The notes under the pieces were generated by a model. That model was not told the DNA's origin and searched no databases. It worked only from the letters and a program-made list of their open reading frames with translations. Positions 3,930-19,518 of a DNA stretch of 22,167 bases are shown here, piece by piece; position 1 is the first letter of the stretch, and each line of letters starts with the position of its first letter. Both the position numbers and the translations under genes were made by a program. Origin of the DNA: a virus; the IMG/VR virus record IMGVR_UViG_3300030419_005891, positions 5,845 to 28,011 of that record; one strand, written 5' to 3'.

Positions 3930-4907
3930 TTACCTACGATATGTTCCTTGTCTATCAGCTGGAAGTAAAAATAATGATTCTTTCTCAGTTGACCAATCAT
4001 CACATTGCTGTTTTAATGAGCTTGATATAGTAATTAATTCCTGATACCTAGTAGAAGTTACTCCATATTTAGGAGCTATAACAACTGCTAATCCCCAACA
4101 TAATGGTAAGTACCACTCTTGAGGAAAGTCGGGCTCACTTTCATTAACTACACCATCAAAATCTTCATAGGATCTTGTAACATATAGATGTATTCTGTCA
4201 TTTGTATATGAATCATCAGGTACAGGCCAAACATTCATATTAGCTGTAGTTACCTGAGGATCAAAATATACTTGATTTATTCTTCCACTTTCAGTTTTCT
4301 TACTTAAGTCAACGTACTCTTGTCTTGATATAACATCAATAGGTATATCAGTATCATCTGTAGTTCTTATCCAAGCATTATTAACATTTAAAATCTTTTG
4401 TGTAAATGCATTTGTATATGTGTATACTCTGTCATTATCAGATGCAGCGTCATCTATTGCGTCAGCAATAGTTAGTGTCGTACTAGAACCTACAGCAGTG
4501 ATAGTACTAAAGTGTATTCCCGCAGAATCAGTTACTACACCTATAGTATCTCCAACAGCCATACCAGTAGTATCGTCTACCGTTAATGAGGTTGCTGAAG
4601 ATGAAACACTACCATTTAATTTAGTAGTAATAACTTCAGATTCTTTAGCCATTTTATCTACTGAAGAACCACCAAACGTATATTGTCTTTGTCCTTTGAT
4701 TGGAAACAGGACTATTTCCTGATTGACAAAGAGATTCATTCCCTCTGCCATCCAAAATTTAATCATCATATTAAGAGATCTAGCACAATCAGATTTTTGG
4801 TTAGTGCTTGGAGTTTCCCCTTCACCAATAACACCAATAAGCTGAAGAGCTTCCGTAATTATATTATCTCTTGTTATTGAAAAATCAACTGATCCACTTG
4901 TAGCCAT
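3930..4907 (-). CDS. P22 gp4-like head-to-tail adaptor (neck) protein with inserted beta domain
   Basis: 325 aa. The N-terminus (about 10-60) has the adaptor pattern: DNIITEALQLIGVIGEGE, then a helix with SLNMMIKFWMAEGMNLF. The family member in P22 (gp4, 166 aa) sits under the portal and closes the head. The extra length here is mainly an insert at about residues 95-165, rich in Ser, Thr, Asp and Val (SLTVDDTTGMAVGDTIGV), which looks like a small beta-sandwich. After it the adaptor pattern resumes with an ILNVNNAWIR strand and a C-terminal helical part containing FPQEWYLPLCWGLAVVIAPKYG. The stop of the preceding gene and this ATG overlap as TAATG. It is directly followed by the gp10-like gene, as in P22. 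Confidence 0.85.
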   Translation of the reverse strand: MATSGSVDFSITRDNIITEALQLIGVIGEGETPSTNQKSDCARSLNMMIKFWMAEGMNLFVNQEIVLFPIKGQRQYTFGGSSVDKMAKESEVITTKLNGSVSSSATSLTVDDTTGMAVGDTIGVVTDSAGIHFSTITAVGSSTTLTIADAIDDAASDNDRVYTYTNAFTQKILNVNNAWIRTTDDTDIPIDVISRQEYVDLSKKTESGRINQVYFDPQVTTANMNVWPVPDDSYTNDRIHLYVTRSYEDFDGVVNESEPDFPQEWYLPLCWGLAVVIAPKYGVTSTRYQELITISSSLKQQCDDWSTEKESLFLLPADRQGTYRR

Positions 4908-10240: not shown

Positions 10241-11152
10241 TTAGGCACCTGGTGAGCCGTAAACGCCTCTTGGGTCCGTCCAACCAAATGAATAACGCTC
10301 AACTGCTTTGAACTTAGCATTTTCAGTGTCGAAATCATTATCAATTGCGAATTGTAATGGACGACGTTGGAAATGTTTCATTCCATCAGCAACATCTGTG
10401 CGTATGAACCAAGCATCGGTATCATTGAAATAATGATTAACGTTTACACCGCCTGGGAATTTACCCATGCTGTATAGTGCGTTAATATCATTGTCAGCAG
10501 TACCAACACGATGTGGTGTCTCCATAATACGATGAGCCTCATAAGTAAGGTCCACAGGTATATTTAGAGTTACAGGATGAACTGAGATTTTTAAACCTCG
10601 GTCATCTGTATATTTACCAATATCGATACATGCTTGTTCTAACGCTGCTTCTGATAAATCAGCTGCGGTCGTTAGTTCGTTTGCCCATGTTCCACCAGCC
10701 ACGTTAACGTGAGCAGTAGAGCATAGTTCTAGTCCGTCACCGCCAGTAAACGAGCTGTTGAAAGCTCGATTATATACGTTAGCAGCAACATTTTCTTTAG
10801 TTTGTCTCATTGAGTAAGCCAAACCTTTGGCACGTTTTTGTGCAACAACGCTATAAAGGTCATCTTCGACCATTTCGCGAGTTACAATAAAACCGTTTGC
10901 GTACACAACGTGAGTGTATCTTGTTAAAAAGCCTTGACGCTCTTCATCATAAGATATTGCAGTACCTTCTGGTTTAGCAGAAGCTAGACCAAAAGATGTA
11001 ATGCCCATGTCTTCTTCGTAGTTCTTATTTGAATTAAAAGAATCGAATAAGGCACTCCACTCAACTGTGTGCTCATTGTATGATTTTCCATACCACGAAT
11101 TAACGCCAGGCCAAAGGGCTTTCGCAAAAGAGCCAGTTGTAATTGTAGCCAT
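10241..11152 (-). CDS. Major capsid protein (HK97-like fold)
   Basis: 303 aa. It forms the icosahedral head lattice. The N-terminus TGSFAKALWPGVNSWYGKSY is followed by EWSALFD and NYEEDMGITSFG. Next come the E-loop-like TAISYDEERQGFLTRYTHVVYANGF and the long helix region TKENVAANVYNRAFNSSFTG, all in the order seen in capsid proteins of this size class. The C-terminal third has PVDLTYEAHRIMET and the P-domain-like FAIDNDFDTENAKFKAVERY. It lacks an extra N-terminal delta domain, in keeping with the separate scaffold gene upstream. AGGAGA precedes the ATG. It is followed by a hairpin, as in other phages where the capsid gene is the most expressed late gene. Confidence 0.9.
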   Translation of the reverse strand: MATITTGSFAKALWPGVNSWYGKSYNEHTVEWSALFDSFNSNKNYEEDMGITSFGLASAKPEGTAISYDEERQGFLTRYTHVVYANGFIVTREMVEDDLYSVVAQKRAKGLAYSMRQTKENVAANVYNRAFNSSFTGGDGLELCSTAHVNVAGGTWANELTTAADLSEAALEQACIDIGKYTDDRGLKISVHPVTLNIPVDLTYEAHRIMETPHRVGTADNDINALYSMGKFPGGVNVNHYFNDTDAWFIRTDVADGMKHFQRRPLQFAIDNDFDTENAKFKAVERYSFGWTDPRGVYGSPGA

Positions 11153-12219: not shown

Positions 12220-13146
12220 CTATATTTCTCCTATTCTTTCAAGCTCAGCTACGTATTCATCTATAGAGTCGACAGCTCCAGCATCGACAAACGATTGTCC
12301 AATCTGAGCATACATATCTCGCGAGTTCGCGGGAAGATCGTCCAATGTTTTCTTCTTTTGTGCCCCATTCGGGCCAGGCTTTGTGGTTCGTTTCGTAGAA
12401 GCAACAGGTGATGCGCTCGGCACCTGTCCCCCAAATTGCTGAGGATAACGAATTTTTATTTCCTTATCTGTATATTCTAATACATCATCAATTGTAGCAT
12501 TAGGGTTTCCTGCACGGAAACCAACTGCAAGTGAATCAGCATATTGACGCATATCGGAGTTAGTACGATACCACGAATTATTATCTATATATTCAGCTAT
12601 TTTATCTGAAGTATATTTTTCTTCAGTTTGTCCCGTAACATTAGGAACAGACATTGCTGGTTGAGATCTAATTCTATCCATCTCACTATCTATGTCAGCT
12701 ACTCTTTTAAATTCTCCTTCCTCCATAGCATTGTATTTTTGGTCGGAAAGTTCTTTTAATACTCTCTGTCTTTCATCTTCTCTAGTACTAGCTTGTATAC
12801 TAGCCATTTTTTCTACCATAGCATTTAGTTTATCTATTTGCTTTCTTTGAGTACCCATAGTTTTGAAATACTCTCCTCTTTCTAAAAAGACTTGTGCATC
12901 TCTCCACTGAGTAGGATCTCCATCCCATTCTTCTTGAGGAACCCATCCTTGCGCACGAGCTGCCTCATCTATAGGATCTTTTTCTTCTACTTTTACTTCT
13001 GCTTCAGGTTCACTTTGAGCTACTTCTTCAACAGGTTCTTTAGTAGAAACTTCTTTTGTTTCAACCTTATTTTGCTCTGCGGTTAATTCTTCTTTAGCCG
13101 AAGGCGTAGGTTTAGTATCATCATATTGTGCTATAAAATCATTCAT
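12220..13146 (-). CDS. Scaffold protein for procapsid assembly
   Basis: 308 aa, charged and mostly helical. It is acidic and disordered at the N-terminus (about 15-60, Glu/Lys/Pro-rich). A segment near 65-100 follows (ARAQGWVPQEEWDGDPTQWR), a signature of phage scaffold proteins in this gene position. A long coiled-coil follows (about 100-165, EKMASIQASTREDERQRVL), then NNSWYRTNSDMRQYA near 190 and a small helical C-terminal domain that usually binds the capsid. It lies between GroES and the head genes, with AAGGAG at 13155-13160 inside the GroES gene end and an 8-base overlap. Scaffold is released or degraded as heads mature. Confidence 0.85.
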   Translation of the reverse strand: MNDFIAQYDDTKPTPSAKEELTAEQNKVETKEVSTKEPVEEVAQSEPEAEVKVEEKDPIDEAARAQGWVPQEEWDGDPTQWRDAQVFLERGEYFKTMGTQRKQIDKLNAMVEKMASIQASTREDERQRVLKELSDQKYNAMEEGEFKRVADIDSEMDRIRSQPAMSVPNVTGQTEEKYTSDKIAEYIDNNSWYRTNSDMRQYADSLAVGFRAGNPNATIDDVLEYTDKEIKIRYPQQFGGQVPSASPVASTKRTTKPGPNGAQKKKTLDDLPANSRDMYAQIGQSFVDAGAVDSIDEYVAELERIGEI

Positions 13147-13486
13147 TTTCTTTTTGCTCCTTATCTACCATCTTACAAAGCACATCTCCATCATCTAAAA
13201 TAACAAACTCTTCTTTAGTTTCGGGATCTTGTATTAACTTTCCTCCGTATCTTGAATAAAGAATCCTATCTCCAACTTCTACCCAAGGCTCTTTATTTTC
13301 TGAGTTTTTGTTATAATCTATCCAAGCTAAAGGACCAATATCTACAACTTCTCCTACAGACATAGTTGCTTTATACAACTTTTCATCTACAGCAATAGCT
13401 ATTTTAATATCTGTTCCTTTTACTTCGTGAGATGTTTCTACTTCGTCAGGCTTTATTAATAATCTATATCCTAAGGCCTTAAGCAT
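13139..13486 (-). CDS. groES: Phage-encoded GroES-like co-chaperonin
   Basis: 115 aa from an ATG at 13486. The frame is open further to 13528, giving a Lys-rich 14-residue extension, but cpn10 proteins begin MLKxLGYRLLIKPDEV as this one does. The 13486 ATG also overlaps the upstream stop by only 8 bases, so I prefer it. The fold pattern is clear: the N-terminal strand LGYRLLIKPDEVE; the mobile-loop region with an IAIA hydrophobic patch (residues about 27-36); then GEVVDIGPLAW, WVEVGDRILYSRYGG, and FVILDDGDVLCKM. It would cap host GroEL to help fold the phage capsid protein, as T4 gp31 does. It is encoded just before scaffold and capsid. Confidence 0.85.
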   Translation of the reverse strand: MLKALGYRLLIKPDEVETSHEVKGTDIKIAIAVDEKLYKATMSVGEVVDIGPLAWIDYNKNSENKEPWVEVGDRILYSRYGGKLIQDPETKEEFVILDDGDVLCKMVDKEQKENE

Positions 13487-13748
13487 CTTTGTAGCTCTCG
13501 TTTGCTTCTTCTTTGTCTTCTTCTTCATTATTTGAAGGAATTCCTTCTTCTACTAACTCTATTACAGCATCTATAAGTTTACATCTTCCAATTATCTCTA
13601 CGTGAGACATGGCTGTGGAATCTATTGTTTCTCCACAAAATCCACCCTTAGAAAATAATTCTTGTAATTCAACTTTTGCTCTTTTTAAATAGTTTATTAA
13701 CTCTTGTGTATAAACCATATTTTTCCAAGCGTATCTATCTCCGCTCAT
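13479..13748 (-). CDS. Small helical hypothetical protein between portal and GroES
   Basis: 89 aa. It starts with the GAGGAG-preceded ATG at 13748; a second in-frame start (MVYTQELINYL) lies ten codons later. The body is helical: MVYTQELINYLKRAKVELQ, then FCGETIDSTAMSHVEIIGR and IDAVIELVEEGIP. The final 17 residues are highly acidic (NNEEEDKEEANES). Similar small proteins are often encoded beside portal genes of marine phages, but the function is unknown to me. Its stop overlaps the GroES start by 8 bases, suggesting coupled translation. Confidence 0.75.
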   Translation of the reverse strand: MSGDRYAWKNMVYTQELINYLKRAKVELQELFSKGGFCGETIDSTAMSHVEIIGRCKLIDAVIELVEEGIPSNNEEEDKEEANESYKDA

Positions 13749-13768: not shown

Positions 13769-15796
13769 TTAACTAGGTATATTTTCTTTGGCGTTATCAG
13801 CTTGCGCTTTATCCGCCTGTGATTGTGCTTTTATTTGCTCTTGTATAATTTTTAATTCTTGTAACTGAACATCCATATCTTTTTCTTTAGCTTCCATTGC
13901 TAATTTAGCTTGCTCTAATTCAGAATCAAATTGAAGTTTTAATTTTTCTAATTCAGTTCTTTCTACCTCTGCTTGTGCTTTAGCCATAGTTAATACAGCA
14001 TTAGCTTCATCTCTAGCTGCTTGGTATTGAATCTTAACTTTTTGCATTTCTTGTTCAGAAGCTTGCAATTGAAGTTCTTGCATCTTAACCTGCGCTTCAA
14101 AATCAGGTTGTGGTTCAGGCATTTGCATCAATTCTGCAATTCCTTCTTGATCTTGAGCTTCAAGTATACGTTTAGTAGCAACTGTAGGATTAACTGATCC
14201 TAATTGTAATAATTGCATTAATGATTCAGCTTTAGCTAATTTTTCAGCATTAGATACATTTGTTGGATCACTATTAGGAACAACATCCATTGATTTATCT
14301 TCAAAATCAGCTTTTCCAATTACTCCTACCTCATCTTCAGGTCCAGTAGGATCTAATACAGCAAAATATTTTTCATCATCTAAGTATAACATATTTAATC
14401 TATATATCTTTTTAAATTCTCGTTTCATTGAACGATGAATTCTTTTATAAATACTAGAAAATACTTGTAATCCTTGCCTTAATACTTCTGATGTAGTAGA
14501 CCAAGGTTGATTTTGACCAGGATTTTCTCCAGTCATTAAATCAGTTACTGAGCTAAGTTGCTGTCCACTTTGGATCATCATACCAAGTAATTGGAATAAT
14601 ACAGTCGATGGTTGTTTAGTTGGAAGAGGTACAATACCTTTTCTTAAATCATCACCAATTGTATTAACATATCTCCATTCTCCAGGCTTAAGAGGAGAAT
14701 TACCATTTGGTATCTTAATGCCTTTAGCTAAGAATCCTGATTGTAAATTATCTAATGTACCTGAATCAATAAGTTGATTTATTAAAGTATTTGCTGCCTC
14801 ATTAAGTGGTCCAAGTAAATTACCAAATCCCATTCCATATACACCTGAATTAGGATCATTAATAAATACATAATTTGTAAAATATTCTACAGGTGTTATA
14901 GAAATTATTTCACCTTTGTCGTTCATATCTACTCCTGTTTGATCATATCTTGCAGCAATACGAACTACTTTTTTTGTATCTTTATGTATAGTAATTACAT
15001 ATGGTTCTTCATATCCATCATTATCTAAATCCCAAGTACAATGACATTCTAAGAATTCATGTGGAGTATCTTCATCACTATTAGGAGGATTTATTCCTAA
15101 AAGTTCATCTTCAGCCTCAGAATGATCTCCATCGTAACTATTAGATTCTTTAGGTAAATCAATATCTAAAAATTGACCCATTCTAATTTGTCTTGTAACT
15201 TCGTTAGGATAATAATATAATTTATGTGTTTTACGATTTGCATCTTCTAAAGAACTTGCATAATAATCAACACATAAATCTTTAGGCAGAACCAATTCAG
15301 ATACCATTTTAGTTCCATCCCAATAAGTCTTTTTAAATACATTTCCTATTATTGGAAGAATTAAACAAGTTCTATCCATTTGATCTTCCCAACTATCCAT
15401 TTCTTCTAATAATTGGTAAGACATATAATTACTTACTCGTCTAGCTCTTTCAGCTTTAGAACCATCTATATCGTTTCCAATAACTCTAGTTTTTACAACT
15501 TTATTATTAGGTAAAAGAGATTGGTATGCACGCGATGCAAATTGTAGAGCTGCTATAGTCAATAGTGGGTACTTTACATTTGCCGCGTCAGGCCAAGGGA
15601 AATTTTTATTCGAAGATACTTGTGTAGCTAGCTTCATATACTCTTCGTATTTATCCATCCACTCGCCTCGAGAATTTTCATCCATCTCATACCAATCGTA
15701 AACCGATCTACCCATATCTTTAAGGGTATCTTCGTCTATTTGCTCAGCTATATTTACTGAGGTAATTAATGCTTGTAAATCTGTTTCTATTGTCAT
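13769..15796 (-). CDS. Portal protein
   Basis: 675 aa, in the size range of podovirus portals (P22 gp1, about 725). It forms the dodecameric channel at one capsid vertex, where terminase docks and DNA passes. Recognisable portions: KNFPWPDAANVKYPLLTIAA at about 64-83, then SRAYQSLLPNN, and RARRVSNYMSYQLLEEMDSW. The C-terminal 115 residues (from about 560) are an almost continuous Gln/Glu/Lys/Ala-rich helix with MQELQLQASEQEMQKVK, matching the long barrel helix known from P22-type portals that projects into the head. It lies one gene away from terL and directly upstream of the small gene and GroES, as expected for a packaging cluster. Confidence 0.9.
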   Translation of the reverse strand: MTIETDLQALITSVNIAEQIDEDTLKDMGRSVYDWYEMDENSRGEWMDKYEEYMKLATQVSSNKNFPWPDAANVKYPLLTIAALQFASRAYQSLLPNNKVVKTRVIGNDIDGSKAERARRVSNYMSYQLLEEMDSWEDQMDRTCLILPIIGNVFKKTYWDGTKMVSELVLPKDLCVDYYASSLEDANRKTHKLYYYPNEVTRQIRMGQFLDIDLPKESNSYDGDHSEAEDELLGINPPNSDEDTPHEFLECHCTWDLDNDGYEEPYVITIHKDTKKVVRIAARYDQTGVDMNDKGEIISITPVEYFTNYVFINDPNSGVYGMGFGNLLGPLNEAANTLINQLIDSGTLDNLQSGFLAKGIKIPNGNSPLKPGEWRYVNTIGDDLRKGIVPLPTKQPSTVLFQLLGMMIQSGQQLSSVTDLMTGENPGQNQPWSTTSEVLRQGLQVFSSIYKRIHRSMKREFKKIYRLNMLYLDDEKYFAVLDPTGPEDEVGVIGKADFEDKSMDVVPNSDPTNVSNAEKLAKAESLMQLLQLGSVNPTVATKRILEAQDQEGIAELMQMPEPQPDFEAQVKMQELQLQASEQEMQKVKIQYQAARDEANAVLTMAKAQAEVERTELEKLKLQFDSELEQAKLAMEAKEKDMDVQLQELKIIQEQIKAQSQADKAQADNAKENIPS

Positions 15797-16413: not shown

Positions 16414-16551
16414 TTAATATCCTGTTATTTGAGATCTTCCCATATGTAAAGATCCCATAGTGTCGTTATATTCGTCTTCCCAATCGATTTCTTCCTGTTC
16501 TTCTTCAGTTGGGGCTGTTATCATTTGATTTAAAACTAATCCCAACCAAGC
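16414..16551 (-). pseudogene. Out-of-frame C-terminal tail of the large terminase
   Basis: In the frame shifted relative to TerL, codons from 16551 to the TAA at 16414-16416 read AWLGLVLNQMITAPTEEEQE and end GRSQITGY. This is the ordinary end of this TerL family (a WLGLxLD..xxAPTxEE tail, ending in TGY). It begins immediately where the TerL frame leaves its family pattern, so the two parts belong to one gene with missing sequence between them. The segment should not be annotated as an independent gene, although an internal ATG at 16524 would give a 36-aa ORF. The gap lies at about 16549-16556. The neighbouring gene's ATG follows 4 bases after this stop, which supports this as the original gene end. 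Confidence 0.75.
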
Positions 16552-17842
16552 CTCCTTGTCTCATTCTACCTTGTATTGCTCTAGCACGAGATAATTTATC
16601 TCTATAAGGAACCATTGGATGTAAGTTAATAAATATTCCCGTTTTTAACATCTCATCTTTTAAAAATGGTCCTATAGCTTTTTTTAATGCTCCTTCCTCA
16701 ACTACAAATAAATCAGGTTGATATCTTACTTGTACATTTAACATTTCTTCAATAATTTGTTTTGCATCCATTCGTTGTCTGATAACATCAACGATATGTA
16801 ATACTCCACTGTGGTCTACTCCACCAACTGTTATAACAGAATAAGATCTTTTATCTTTCTCAGATATAGCAAAATCTATTGCTGCATAATAAGTCTTAGC
16901 TAAATCAAAATCGTCTTCTGACATTGGCACAAAATCATTTTTTCTAAAAAATGCATCACCCTCATGTATTGGGTAATTCAAATATTCTTGAGCATATCCT
17001 TCTGATATACCTTGTCTTACAAAATCATTTTTTAATTTAGTAAGTCTTTCTTCATTAAATTTTTCAGGCCATAAAATATCTTGAAAATCATCAAAATCAG
17101 TATGTGCTTTATATTTGATTGAATGCCAAGCTCTTTTTTTATCTAAAGAATATTCTTTAAGATTTTCCTTAACTGTATATTTAGCTTCATCTCCAGTAGT
17201 CTCAGGCATTAATCTTTCTAATAAACTATCAAAATGTAATACAGTTCCTACAAGTCTTATTTGTCCATTATCCGATAATGCTGGTATTAATGCGCCGTAA
17301 AACCAATTTCTAAACTTATCTCTACGTTCTTCATTTGATACGGCTTCATCATTTTCCATATCATCACAGATTATAAGATTAGGTCGTTTACCTCTCCATT
17401 TAAAACCACGAACAGATCCCGAACCTCCTGATGCACCTCTAGCCATTATTCTGACTTGATGATTATCAGATCCCATCTTAAATCTTATTTCTCTTTCAGC
17501 ATCTTTGTAAATATCAGTTACTTTAAATAAACTTCTTAACTTTTGATTTTCATATAGTTCCATCTTAATATCATTTAAGAATTGAACTGCTTGAAGTTCA
17601 GTATCGGATACTAAAACTACAAAATCTGCTTCTCTAAATAAAACCGCTGCTAATGTGTATGCGTGTGTTACCGCAGTACTTTTTGCGTGCCCTCTAGGAG
17701 CTGCTATAGCAACAAGTGAGTGATCTGAGCAACAATAGTCCCAAAGTTCCCTGTGGAATTGTGGGGTAGGTTTCGGATTGTCGTATCTCTCACTTAATAA
17801 ACTAGTAGCAAAACCGTAAATCAGGTCACTAGTTAATTTCAT
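16505..17842 (-). CDS. terL: Large terminase subunit (DNA-packaging ATPase/nuclease), C-terminus disrupted
   Basis: 445 codons as read. It pumps DNA into the prohead and cuts concatemers. ATPase motifs: Walker A APRGHAKST (48-56), Walker B LIICDDME (156-163, D160/D161 and E163) and coupling motif GTVLH (199-203). Nuclease motifs: the first Asp in AAIDFAIS (D323) and the acidic pair in VVEEGA (E382/E383). After GRMRQGG (425-431) the sequence leaves the family pattern and ends in 14 unrelated residues. The region that should follow, including the third nuclease acid in the usual DDQxDA motif, is absent, while the normal C-terminal tail continues at once in another frame (16414-16551). Unless repaired, this copy would keep the motor but lose DNA cutting. 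The gene starts 3 bases after the pqqA-like stop. Confidence 0.9.
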   Translation of the reverse strand: MKLTSDLIYGFATSLLSERYDNPKPTPQFHRELWDYCCSDHSLVAIAAPRGHAKSTAVTHAYTLAAVLFREADFVVLVSDTELQAVQFLNDIKMELYENQKLRSLFKVTDIYKDAEREIRFKMGSDNHQVRIMARGASGGSGSVRGFKWRGKRPNLIICDDMENDEAVSNEERRDKFRNWFYGALIPALSDNGQIRLVGTVLHFDSLLERLMPETTGDEAKYTVKENLKEYSLDKKRAWHSIKYKAHTDFDDFQDILWPEKFNEERLTKLKNDFVRQGISEGYAQEYLNYPIHEGDAFFRKNDFVPMSEDDFDLAKTYYAAIDFAISEKDKRSYSVITVGGVDHSGVLHIVDVIRQRMDAKQIIEEMLNVQVRYQPDLFVVEEGALKKAIGPFLKDEMLKTGIFINLHPMVPYRDKLSRARAIQGRMRQGGLVGISFKSNDNSPN

Positions 17843-17845
17843 ATA

Positions 17846-17923
17846 TTAATTGCTAGCATTAATATACATGGTAACTTCGAAGCCAAAACGAAGATCTTCA
17901 AACGATGGTGTTTCCCATTTCAT
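17846..17923 (-). CDS. pqqA: PqqA-like peptide (precursor of cofactor PQQ)
   Basis: A 25-codon gene with AGGAGA 8 bases before its ATG. It stops 3 bases before the terL ATG. It starts MKW, and residues 10-20 read DLRFGFEVTMY. PqqA family peptides (22-29 aa) share MKW/MW, a Pro near residue 5-6, a D/E-L/I-R/C-x-G-x-E-V-T-x-Y core, and a few residues after Tyr. All of these are present here, with Glu16 and Tyr20 at the positions that become PQQ in the methylotroph peptide. In PQQ synthesis PqqD presents PqqA to the radical SAM enzyme PqqE, which links these two side chains. No pqqB-E genes are in this window, so any product would need host enzymes. A chance match is unlikely given the ribosome binding site and residue spacing. 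The role in the phage is unknown. Confidence 0.85.
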   Translation of the reverse strand: MKWETPSFEDLRFGFEVTMYINASN

Positions 17924-17969
17924 ATTATTTTCTCCTATATTAGTATTAATAATATTTTAAAATCTTAAA

Positions 17970-18440
17970 TTATACGCCAGCTATAAATACTTCAACTGCT
18001 ACTTCGTTACTTAGAGGATCAACTAGTATACTTTCTAAGTTATGTAATGCAGTTACTATAGTTGCATTGGCATCGGATACAGCTATGCCATCACTTGGGG
18101 ATCCCATTATAAAGCTTTTACCAGCCTCAAGTAAAATTGTACATGATTCATCTGCAGCAGAGTCATCTTCACCAGCATCTATTTGTAAAGATAGATTTAC
18201 TGGGTTTGAAGAATCTAAATTTGTTACACGTATATATCTTACATCTTCAACATCTAAAGCTCCATCAGCAGTAGCAGATGTACTTTTAAATGTTGCAATT
18301 GTAGTATCTACGCCAGTAGGACATGCTACAATTCTTTTAAAGGTTTCAACAACACTTGCCACAGTAAGAGAAGTAGTTGCACCTTGGTCAACTCCATTAA
18401 GAGTTACGCTTTCGGTTAATGTTACTGTTAAATCTGCCAT
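17970..18440 (-). CDS. Beta-rich structural protein upstream of terminase
   Basis: 156 aa, acidic, rich in Ser, Thr, Asp, Val and Ala. It begins with the repeated-strand pattern LTVTLTESVTLNGVDQGAT and contains RYIRVTNLDSSNPVNLSL and LLEAGKSFIMGSPSDG, a pattern common in small marine-phage virion proteins. No signal or membrane segment is present. The AGGAAA site lies in the stop region of the upstream basic-protein gene. Position before terL is unusual for a virion protein but is found in phages of this type. Likely a minor structural component; exact location unknown. It is followed by 46 AT-rich bases and then the PqqA-like gene. Confidence 0.75.
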   Translation of the reverse strand: MADLTVTLTESVTLNGVDQGATTSLTVASVVETFKRIVACPTGVDTTIATFKSTSATADGALDVEDVRYIRVTNLDSSNPVNLSLQIDAGEDDSAADESCTILLEAGKSFIMGSPSDGIAVSDANATIVTALHNLESILVDPLSNEVAVEVFIAGV

Positions 18441-19254: not shown

Positions 19255-19518
19255 TTATGTGTACCTCTTTCCGTATTTTTTACGATCCTTTGTTTTTCGG
19301 GAGTAGCTTCTATTTTTAGATTTACTAACTACTCGTTTATTTTTACTTGAGTTATTTTTAGGATTACGATCCTTATGGTCAACATCCTTACCATCTCCTT
19401 TTTTAGCTATACCCTTTTTTATAGCTTCTCTCCTAGATTTATTACGAGCAGCTCTACGCTTTTTTTGTTTTTTCTTACTATGGTAAGTAGCGTATTCTCG
19501 TTTGTAATCTCTAGCCAT
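19255..19518 (-). CDS. Small basic HNH-type protein
   Basis: 87 aa. The first 40 residues form a basic helix (YKREYATYHSKKKQKKRRAA ...). Then comes the core GDGKDVDHKDRNPKNNSSKN (41-60) followed by SKSKNRS. The DH (H48), NN (N55/N56) and later Asn (N69) fit a minimal HNH nuclease pattern of the VDHxDxNPxNN...NxxxxSxxxN kind common in phages. HNH proteins near terminase in other phages take part in DNA packaging (HK97 gp74 is a known case). The motif lacks the zinc-binding cysteines of classic HNH, and activity is not proven. It lies in the basic-protein cluster with no clear Shine-Dalgarno site. Confidence 0.7.
   Translation of the reverse strand: MARDYKREYATYHSKKKQKKRRAARNKSRREAIKKGIAKKGDGKDVDHKDRNPKNNSSKNKRVVSKSKNRSYSRKTKDRKKYGKRYT

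Follow-up and report, generated by a model that had tools for sequence, protein, structure and literature searches.

Solitary pqqA genes in phages: a single consumable peptide that probably feeds the PQQ pathway of the host

Introduction

Synthesis of PQQ uses up the peptide PqqA, one peptide for each molecule of the cofactor, and the central enzyme of methylotrophs is a PQQ methanol dehydrogenase. In the bacterial pathway PqqD binds PqqA and PqqE cross-links its Glu16 and Tyr20 (PMC10906245). The two residues are exacting, as no PQQ is formed when Glu is replaced by Asp or Tyr by Phe in PqqA, and cells produce the peptide at about 20-fold over PqqC/E (PMC2294125). Copy numbers lean the same way: Methylophilaceae have 3-12 pqqA and usually one pqqBCDE (PMC4109929), and a PQQ overproducer carries three solitary pqqA among its five (PMC9851590). 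According to work that the latter paper cites, cell extract turns added PqqA peptide into PQQ (cited in PMC9851590).

Among phages, pqqA has already been published once in detail, in VP_266, a Methylophilaceae phage of Lake Baikal that carries it together with a methanol dehydrogenase, the pair being read as PQQ supply to that enzyme (PMC7678222, 2020). A list of viral genes from reservoir sediments also names it, giving no detail (PMC13188868). Here we describe a pqqA gene that stands by itself in the late region of an uncultivated phage. The viral record is 28,011 bases long; the stretch analysed (the window) comprises 22,167 of them, and the search for pqq genes covered the whole record.

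A pqqA gene ahead of the terminase gene

The features on which the account relies are the following.

17846..17923, minus strand: pqqA, 25-aa PQQ precursor peptide MKWETPSFEDLRFGFEVTMYINASN; Pfam PF08042, 45.3 bits, E=7.7e-12 (cut-off 21.1); NCBIfam equivalog TIGR02107, 45.9 bits, E=3.5e-12 (cut-off 20)
17932..17936, minus strand: Shine-Dalgarno AGGAG of pqqA, 8 bases before the ATG; sequence AATATAGGAGAAAATAATATG
16505..17842, minus strand: terL, terminase large subunit; PHROG 38, E=5.4e-65
17970..18440, minus strand: ORF of 156 aa upstream of pqqA; no family match
13769..15796, minus strand: portal protein; PHROG 1216, E=1.7e-32
10241..11152, minus strand: major capsid protein; PHROG 371, E=1.4e-11

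The 25 codons of pqqA run from an ATG at 17923, directly preceded by ATAGGAGAAAATAAT, to a TAA at 17848-17846, with three bases between this stop and the ATG of terL (17842). An earlier note, made from the letters of the DNA, had described just such a gene with a strong ribosome binding site three bases before terL; it gave no strand, and we add that this is the minus strand. Read on the plus strand, 17846-17923 gives no sensible peptide. The MKW start, Pro6, Glu16 (codon 17878-17876) and Tyr20 (codon 17866-17864) all lie at the positions claimed, the last two framing the motif EVTMY (Glu-X-X-X-Tyr), and we take them to be the residues turned into PQQ. The likeness to PqqA put forward in that note also withstood the family models: the peptide scores more than twice the cut-off of both curated PqqA models, far above chance. 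At 25 aa, with its own ATG and Shine-Dalgarno, it fits the class of short free peptides of about 22-39 aa. Judged by its sequence, it is an unambiguous PqqA. With bacterial PqqA (PF08042/TIGR02107; for example MKWETPKFEDIRFGFEVTMYINNR, L211/L262) it shares the length class, W3, P6, R12-G14, Glu16, Tyr20 and the I21-N22 tail; it differs in a C-terminus that reads ASN where cellular peptides have NR or NK, and in lying within a phage virion cluster with no pqqB-E. A PHROGs search returned no PqqA match for the peptide, so that this collection cannot flag the gene, and a promoter scan at pqqA gave a signal no higher than in shuffled sequence.

The genome is genuinely that of a phage: terL, portal and capsid genes share the strand of pqqA, the record is viral, and the gene is kept in relatives. 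The absence of any other pqq gene, also claimed in the earlier note, is borne out over all 28,011 bases. The record has one PqqA copy, and when PqqB, C, D and E of Acinetobacter served as tblastn queries, the only match was a meaningless one of 28 residues to PqqD (E=0.47). We are thus dealing with a single-component gene, not with a PQQ biosynthetic operon.

Some features of the surroundings deserve mention in their own right. The terL ORF has 445 aa here against 508 aa in close relatives (comparison with L012): at 16505-16580 (minus strand) it is without the stretch matching relative residues 433-454, and the remainder runs in a different frame. The nuclease end of the terminase is thus disrupted in this record, through an assembly error or because the genome is defective. 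The phage also encodes a GroES-like co-chaperonin (13139-13528, minus strand; Pfam Cpn10, 38 bits, cut-off 21.1), and the related Manatee Spring phage MW202796 has a chaperonin 10 kd gene at a similar place. A small HNH endonuclease lies at 19255-19518 (minus strand; PF13392); a similar ORF seemingly stands right before terL in the relatives L020 and L021, which suggests that the region before terL is a site of variable cargo.

Optional cargo within one phage lineage

Close relatives were gathered through terL, independently of pqqA. Seven of the ten relatives with a full-length terL (78-95% identity) have the gene, at varying places: it lies 3-7 bases before terL in the window and in L012-L014, about 0.5 kb upstream in L018 and L019, and about 2.6-3.2 kb upstream in L020 and L021. 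The other three (L015, a 42.6-kb record, L016 and L017) have no pqqA. L017 reproduces the window junction minus pqqA, its terL coming straight after the counterpart of the 156-aa ORF. None was found either in 17 more distant relatives (L024-L040, about 46-52% identity, whole records searched). The gene is therefore optional cargo inside one phage lineage, and its absence from such close relatives as L015-L017 means that it is dispensable.

Where pqqA is present, its core RFGFEVTMY is invariant as protein across carriers, with no nonsynonymous change, and the codons beneath it vary (GGC/GGT, TTC/TTT, GTT/GTC/GTA, ACC/ACA, CGT/CGC). Values of dN/dS over 20 codons are mostly 0.04-0.5, rough estimates from 60 bases each, and one pair, L012/L014, exceeds 1 on the basis of very few changes. 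This pattern suggests, in a rough manner, purifying selection on pqqA in the lineage. The earlier note had named a failed HMM match, loss of Glu16/Tyr20 in homologous phages and decay of the frame in relatives as the outcomes that would speak against it; none of the three occurred.

Cellular counterparts and likely host

Among the matches listed, the nearest cellular peptides are MKWETPKFEDIRFGFEVTMYINNR and similar ones from Gammaproteobacteria (Thiotrichales, marine bins labelled Legionellales, Methyloprofundus and others). The type differs from the PqqA of Methylophilales phages. Twelve cellular genomes with the window's PqqA type have exactly one PqqE above cut-off each, together with 1-9 PqqA, and in 11 of them a PQQ alcohol dehydrogenase passes its cut-off too. 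One marine bin belongs to a family in which 44 of 53 genomes have PqqA, with up to six copies. Several gammaproteobacterial records (L255, L258, L283, L290 and others) display tandem as well as scattered solitary pqqA far from pqqB-E, up to nine copies in a Methylophaga genome, and the window gene shares this solitary habit of the extra bacterial copies. The type of its PqqA peptide suggests that the window phage likely has a PQQ-dependent gammaproteobacterium as its host. When compared with 369 gammaproteobacterial genomes, the capsid protein gave one match, at 45%; a tRNA, looked for in the record as a hint of the host, was not found.

Solitary pqqA in other phages

A tblastn search of a phage collection matched 12 records, 10 of which are genuine complete phage genomes: Melnitz (four), P19250A, Venkman, MEP301, MEP401, MEP402 and one Manatee Spring phage. 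Acinetobacter phage MD-2021a (L010, CAKLQF020000010.1; two records, with the top 'phage' score) was excluded, being a mislabelled chromosome with pqqA-pqqB-C-D-E, ppk and fur. The hosts, stated for nine of the ten phages, are all Methylophilales/Methylophilaceae methylotrophs, and the named isolates span Zobellviridae, Kyanoviridae and further unclassified Caudoviricetes. The prediction that gene callers would miss pqqA proved right, as it is unannotated in all six phage records inspected. Two 'hypothetical proteins' called antisense to pqqA, at 3967-4062 in Melnitz-1 (L009) and 2067-2195 in the Manatee Spring phage MW202481 (L007), are probably spurious. The Melnitz paper and a paper on one lineage of OM43 phages do not report pqqA. 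The Baikal authors described P19250A as being without their auxiliary genes (PMC7678222); contrary to this statement, it does have pqqA.

In P19250A, Venkman, MEP301, MEP401/402 and Melnitz the gene resembles that of the window in being short and solitary, with a Shine-Dalgarno and an identical RFGFEVTMY core; it differs in belonging to the Methylophilales type (MWTxPxATEMRFGFEVTMYVMNK) and in its genomic positions, and it is unannotated there. VP_266 likewise encodes its own pqqA, but it is a T4-like freshwater phage, whereas the window phage is of another lineage with a PqqA that is not of the Methylophilaceae type; VP_266 has a dehydrogenase, whereas none is present in the window phage's 28 kb.

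A wider viral set was gathered with a DNA pattern for R[F/I]GFEVTMY, and was in this way selected for pqqA. At least 119 stretches of viral contigs match it, 108 of them distinct in DNA among the matches listed. A strong Shine-Dalgarno precedes 110 of the 119 listed viral pqqA; of 866 arbitrary ATGs in the same loci, 33 have one. As this first pattern required Glu and Tyr, the scan was repeated with the codons of Glu16 and Tyr20 left free: both residues are kept in all 120 matches listed, Tyr20 being written TAC in 65 and TAT in 55. By shared proteins the contigs fall into 12 multi-member groups plus singletons, although they are fragments and the number of lineages is uncertain; representatives of the groups encode portal, DNA polymerase, helicase, ejection, tail-fibre and baseplate proteins. 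In these other phages pqqA adjoins unrelated genes, in either orientation. The partner genes are missing here too: PqqB-E found nothing by tblastn in 199 viral loci, while the same queries match 35 of 119 cellular loci that are comparable in length, and in 20 longer phage records nothing scored above the cut-off of the PqqE model. One of these 20, a 72-kb phage contig (L125, IMGVR_UViG_3300025120_009955), combines pqqA with a PQQ-dependent alcohol dehydrogenase of full length (608 bits against a cut-off of 480), which recalls VP_266 (PMC7678222). We consider it rather likely that supplying PqqA alone is a general strategy, repeatedly acquired by unrelated lineages of phages that live on PQQ-dependent methylotrophs or alcohol oxidisers, and almost wholly missed owing to the gene's length of some 23 codons.

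One may ask whether the gene is a mere passenger, either a cellular pqqA captured recently and serving no selected function, or host DNA whose contigs were miscalled as viral. The many scattered solitary copies in cellular genomes would make chance capture easy, and the gene is optional in the window lineage, but the signs of purifying selection there, its recurrence in twelve multi-member contig groups as well as in cultured phages, the retained Shine-Dalgarno and the phage hallmark genes on the contigs make this very unlikely. The one record that was truly mislabelled, MD-2021a, was spotted and left out.

What a phage may gain from PqqA alone

Given that the peptide is a conserved PqqA, that pqqB-E are lacking, that the gene recurs in unrelated phages and that cells show the matching pattern of several pqqA to one pqqE, the window pqqA is, with good probability, a one-gene auxiliary metabolic gene that feeds the host PQQ pathway and sustains alcohol oxidation during infection. 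The phage would produce the PqqA peptide as infection proceeds; host PqqD would bind it, and host PqqE, a radical SAM enzyme, would cross-link Glu16 to Tyr20. A host protease, PqqB and PqqC would then complete PQQ, which would load the host's periplasmic PQQ-dependent methanol/alcohol dehydrogenases. With methanol or alcohol oxidation so sustained, respiration and carbon supply may keep going until lysis, to the benefit of the phage. A single gene would suffice because the peptide is a stoichiometric substrate, destroyed in the process, whereas PqqB-E are reusable enzymes already in the host; since these can persist after infection, it is mechanistically sensible for a phage to carry only the consumable. 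Cyanophages carry psbA, coding for a photosystem subunit, a fast-consumed part of the host energy pathway. The analogy would lie in a phage bringing only the fast-consumed component of such a pathway, although a photosystem subunit differs from a cofactor precursor and the two are unrelated. To be sure, the effect may be modest, as it is not in every case PqqA that chiefly limits synthesis: in Acetobacter more pqqAB alone raised PQQ by 29% only, and the whole cluster eightfold (PMC7936290).

The same peptide could be imagined to do the reverse, as a decoy that ties up PqqD/PqqE of the host or swamps the pathway, lowering PQQ and slowing the host or competing phages. An excess of lone substrate could in principle compete for PqqD/PqqE, and no PQQ enzymes accompany it, but a jammer needs no cross-linkable Glu/Tyr and would often lose residues that are in fact kept in 120 of 120 listed; phages that have an alcohol dehydrogenase too (L125; VP_266, PMC7678222) profit from more PQQ, not less, and we regard the decoy as very unlikely too. 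Still less probable is that the main gain from feeding lies outside alcohol oxidation, for instance in glucose dehydrogenase, in redox protection or in PQQ passed on to neighbouring cells. The stated hosts of pqqA phages are all methylotrophs, built around PQQ methanol dehydrogenase, which argues against such other ends. So does the fact that two phages encode the alcohol dehydrogenase itself (L125; VP_266, PMC7678222). In favour of such ends, glucose and other dehydrogenases do use PQQ (PMC12542740). Least probable of all is co-option for the virion or packaging, as a terminase accessory or a leader coupling translation to terL, for although pqqA ends 3-7 bases before a terL that starts without an obvious Shine-Dalgarno of its own in the window and L012-L014, close relatives have it 0.5 to about 3 kb away, L017 has the junction without it, its neighbours elsewhere are unrelated genes in either orientation, and the invariance of Glu/Tyr would be left unexplained. 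Of the uses that the earlier note had proposed, namely feeding, jamming or packaging, feeding of the host pathway is thus the best supported, through Glu/Tyr invariance and the pairing with dehydrogenase, and packaging is made unlikely by a pqqA that is not tied to terL in other relatives or other phages.

Implications

A PQQ precursor among phage genes, which the earlier note had found unexpected, is indeed surprising, if somewhat less so than it claimed, since the pqqA of VP_266 was already published (PMC7678222). What is new, set against the open-access literature, is how widely solitary pqqA occurs in methylotroph phages; earlier reports may exist. For several carriers (P19250A, Venkman, MEP301, MEP401/402, Melnitz) phage and host are both in culture, which makes the feeding of host PQQ synthesis open to direct testing. 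If it is true, functional phage genes would be shown to lie hidden by length cut-offs, and phages whose methylotroph hosts are ubiquitous in the sea and in fresh water would control methanol oxidation through a single peptide of 23-25 residues, a link between viral infection and the methanol and lanthanide-dependent carbon cycle.
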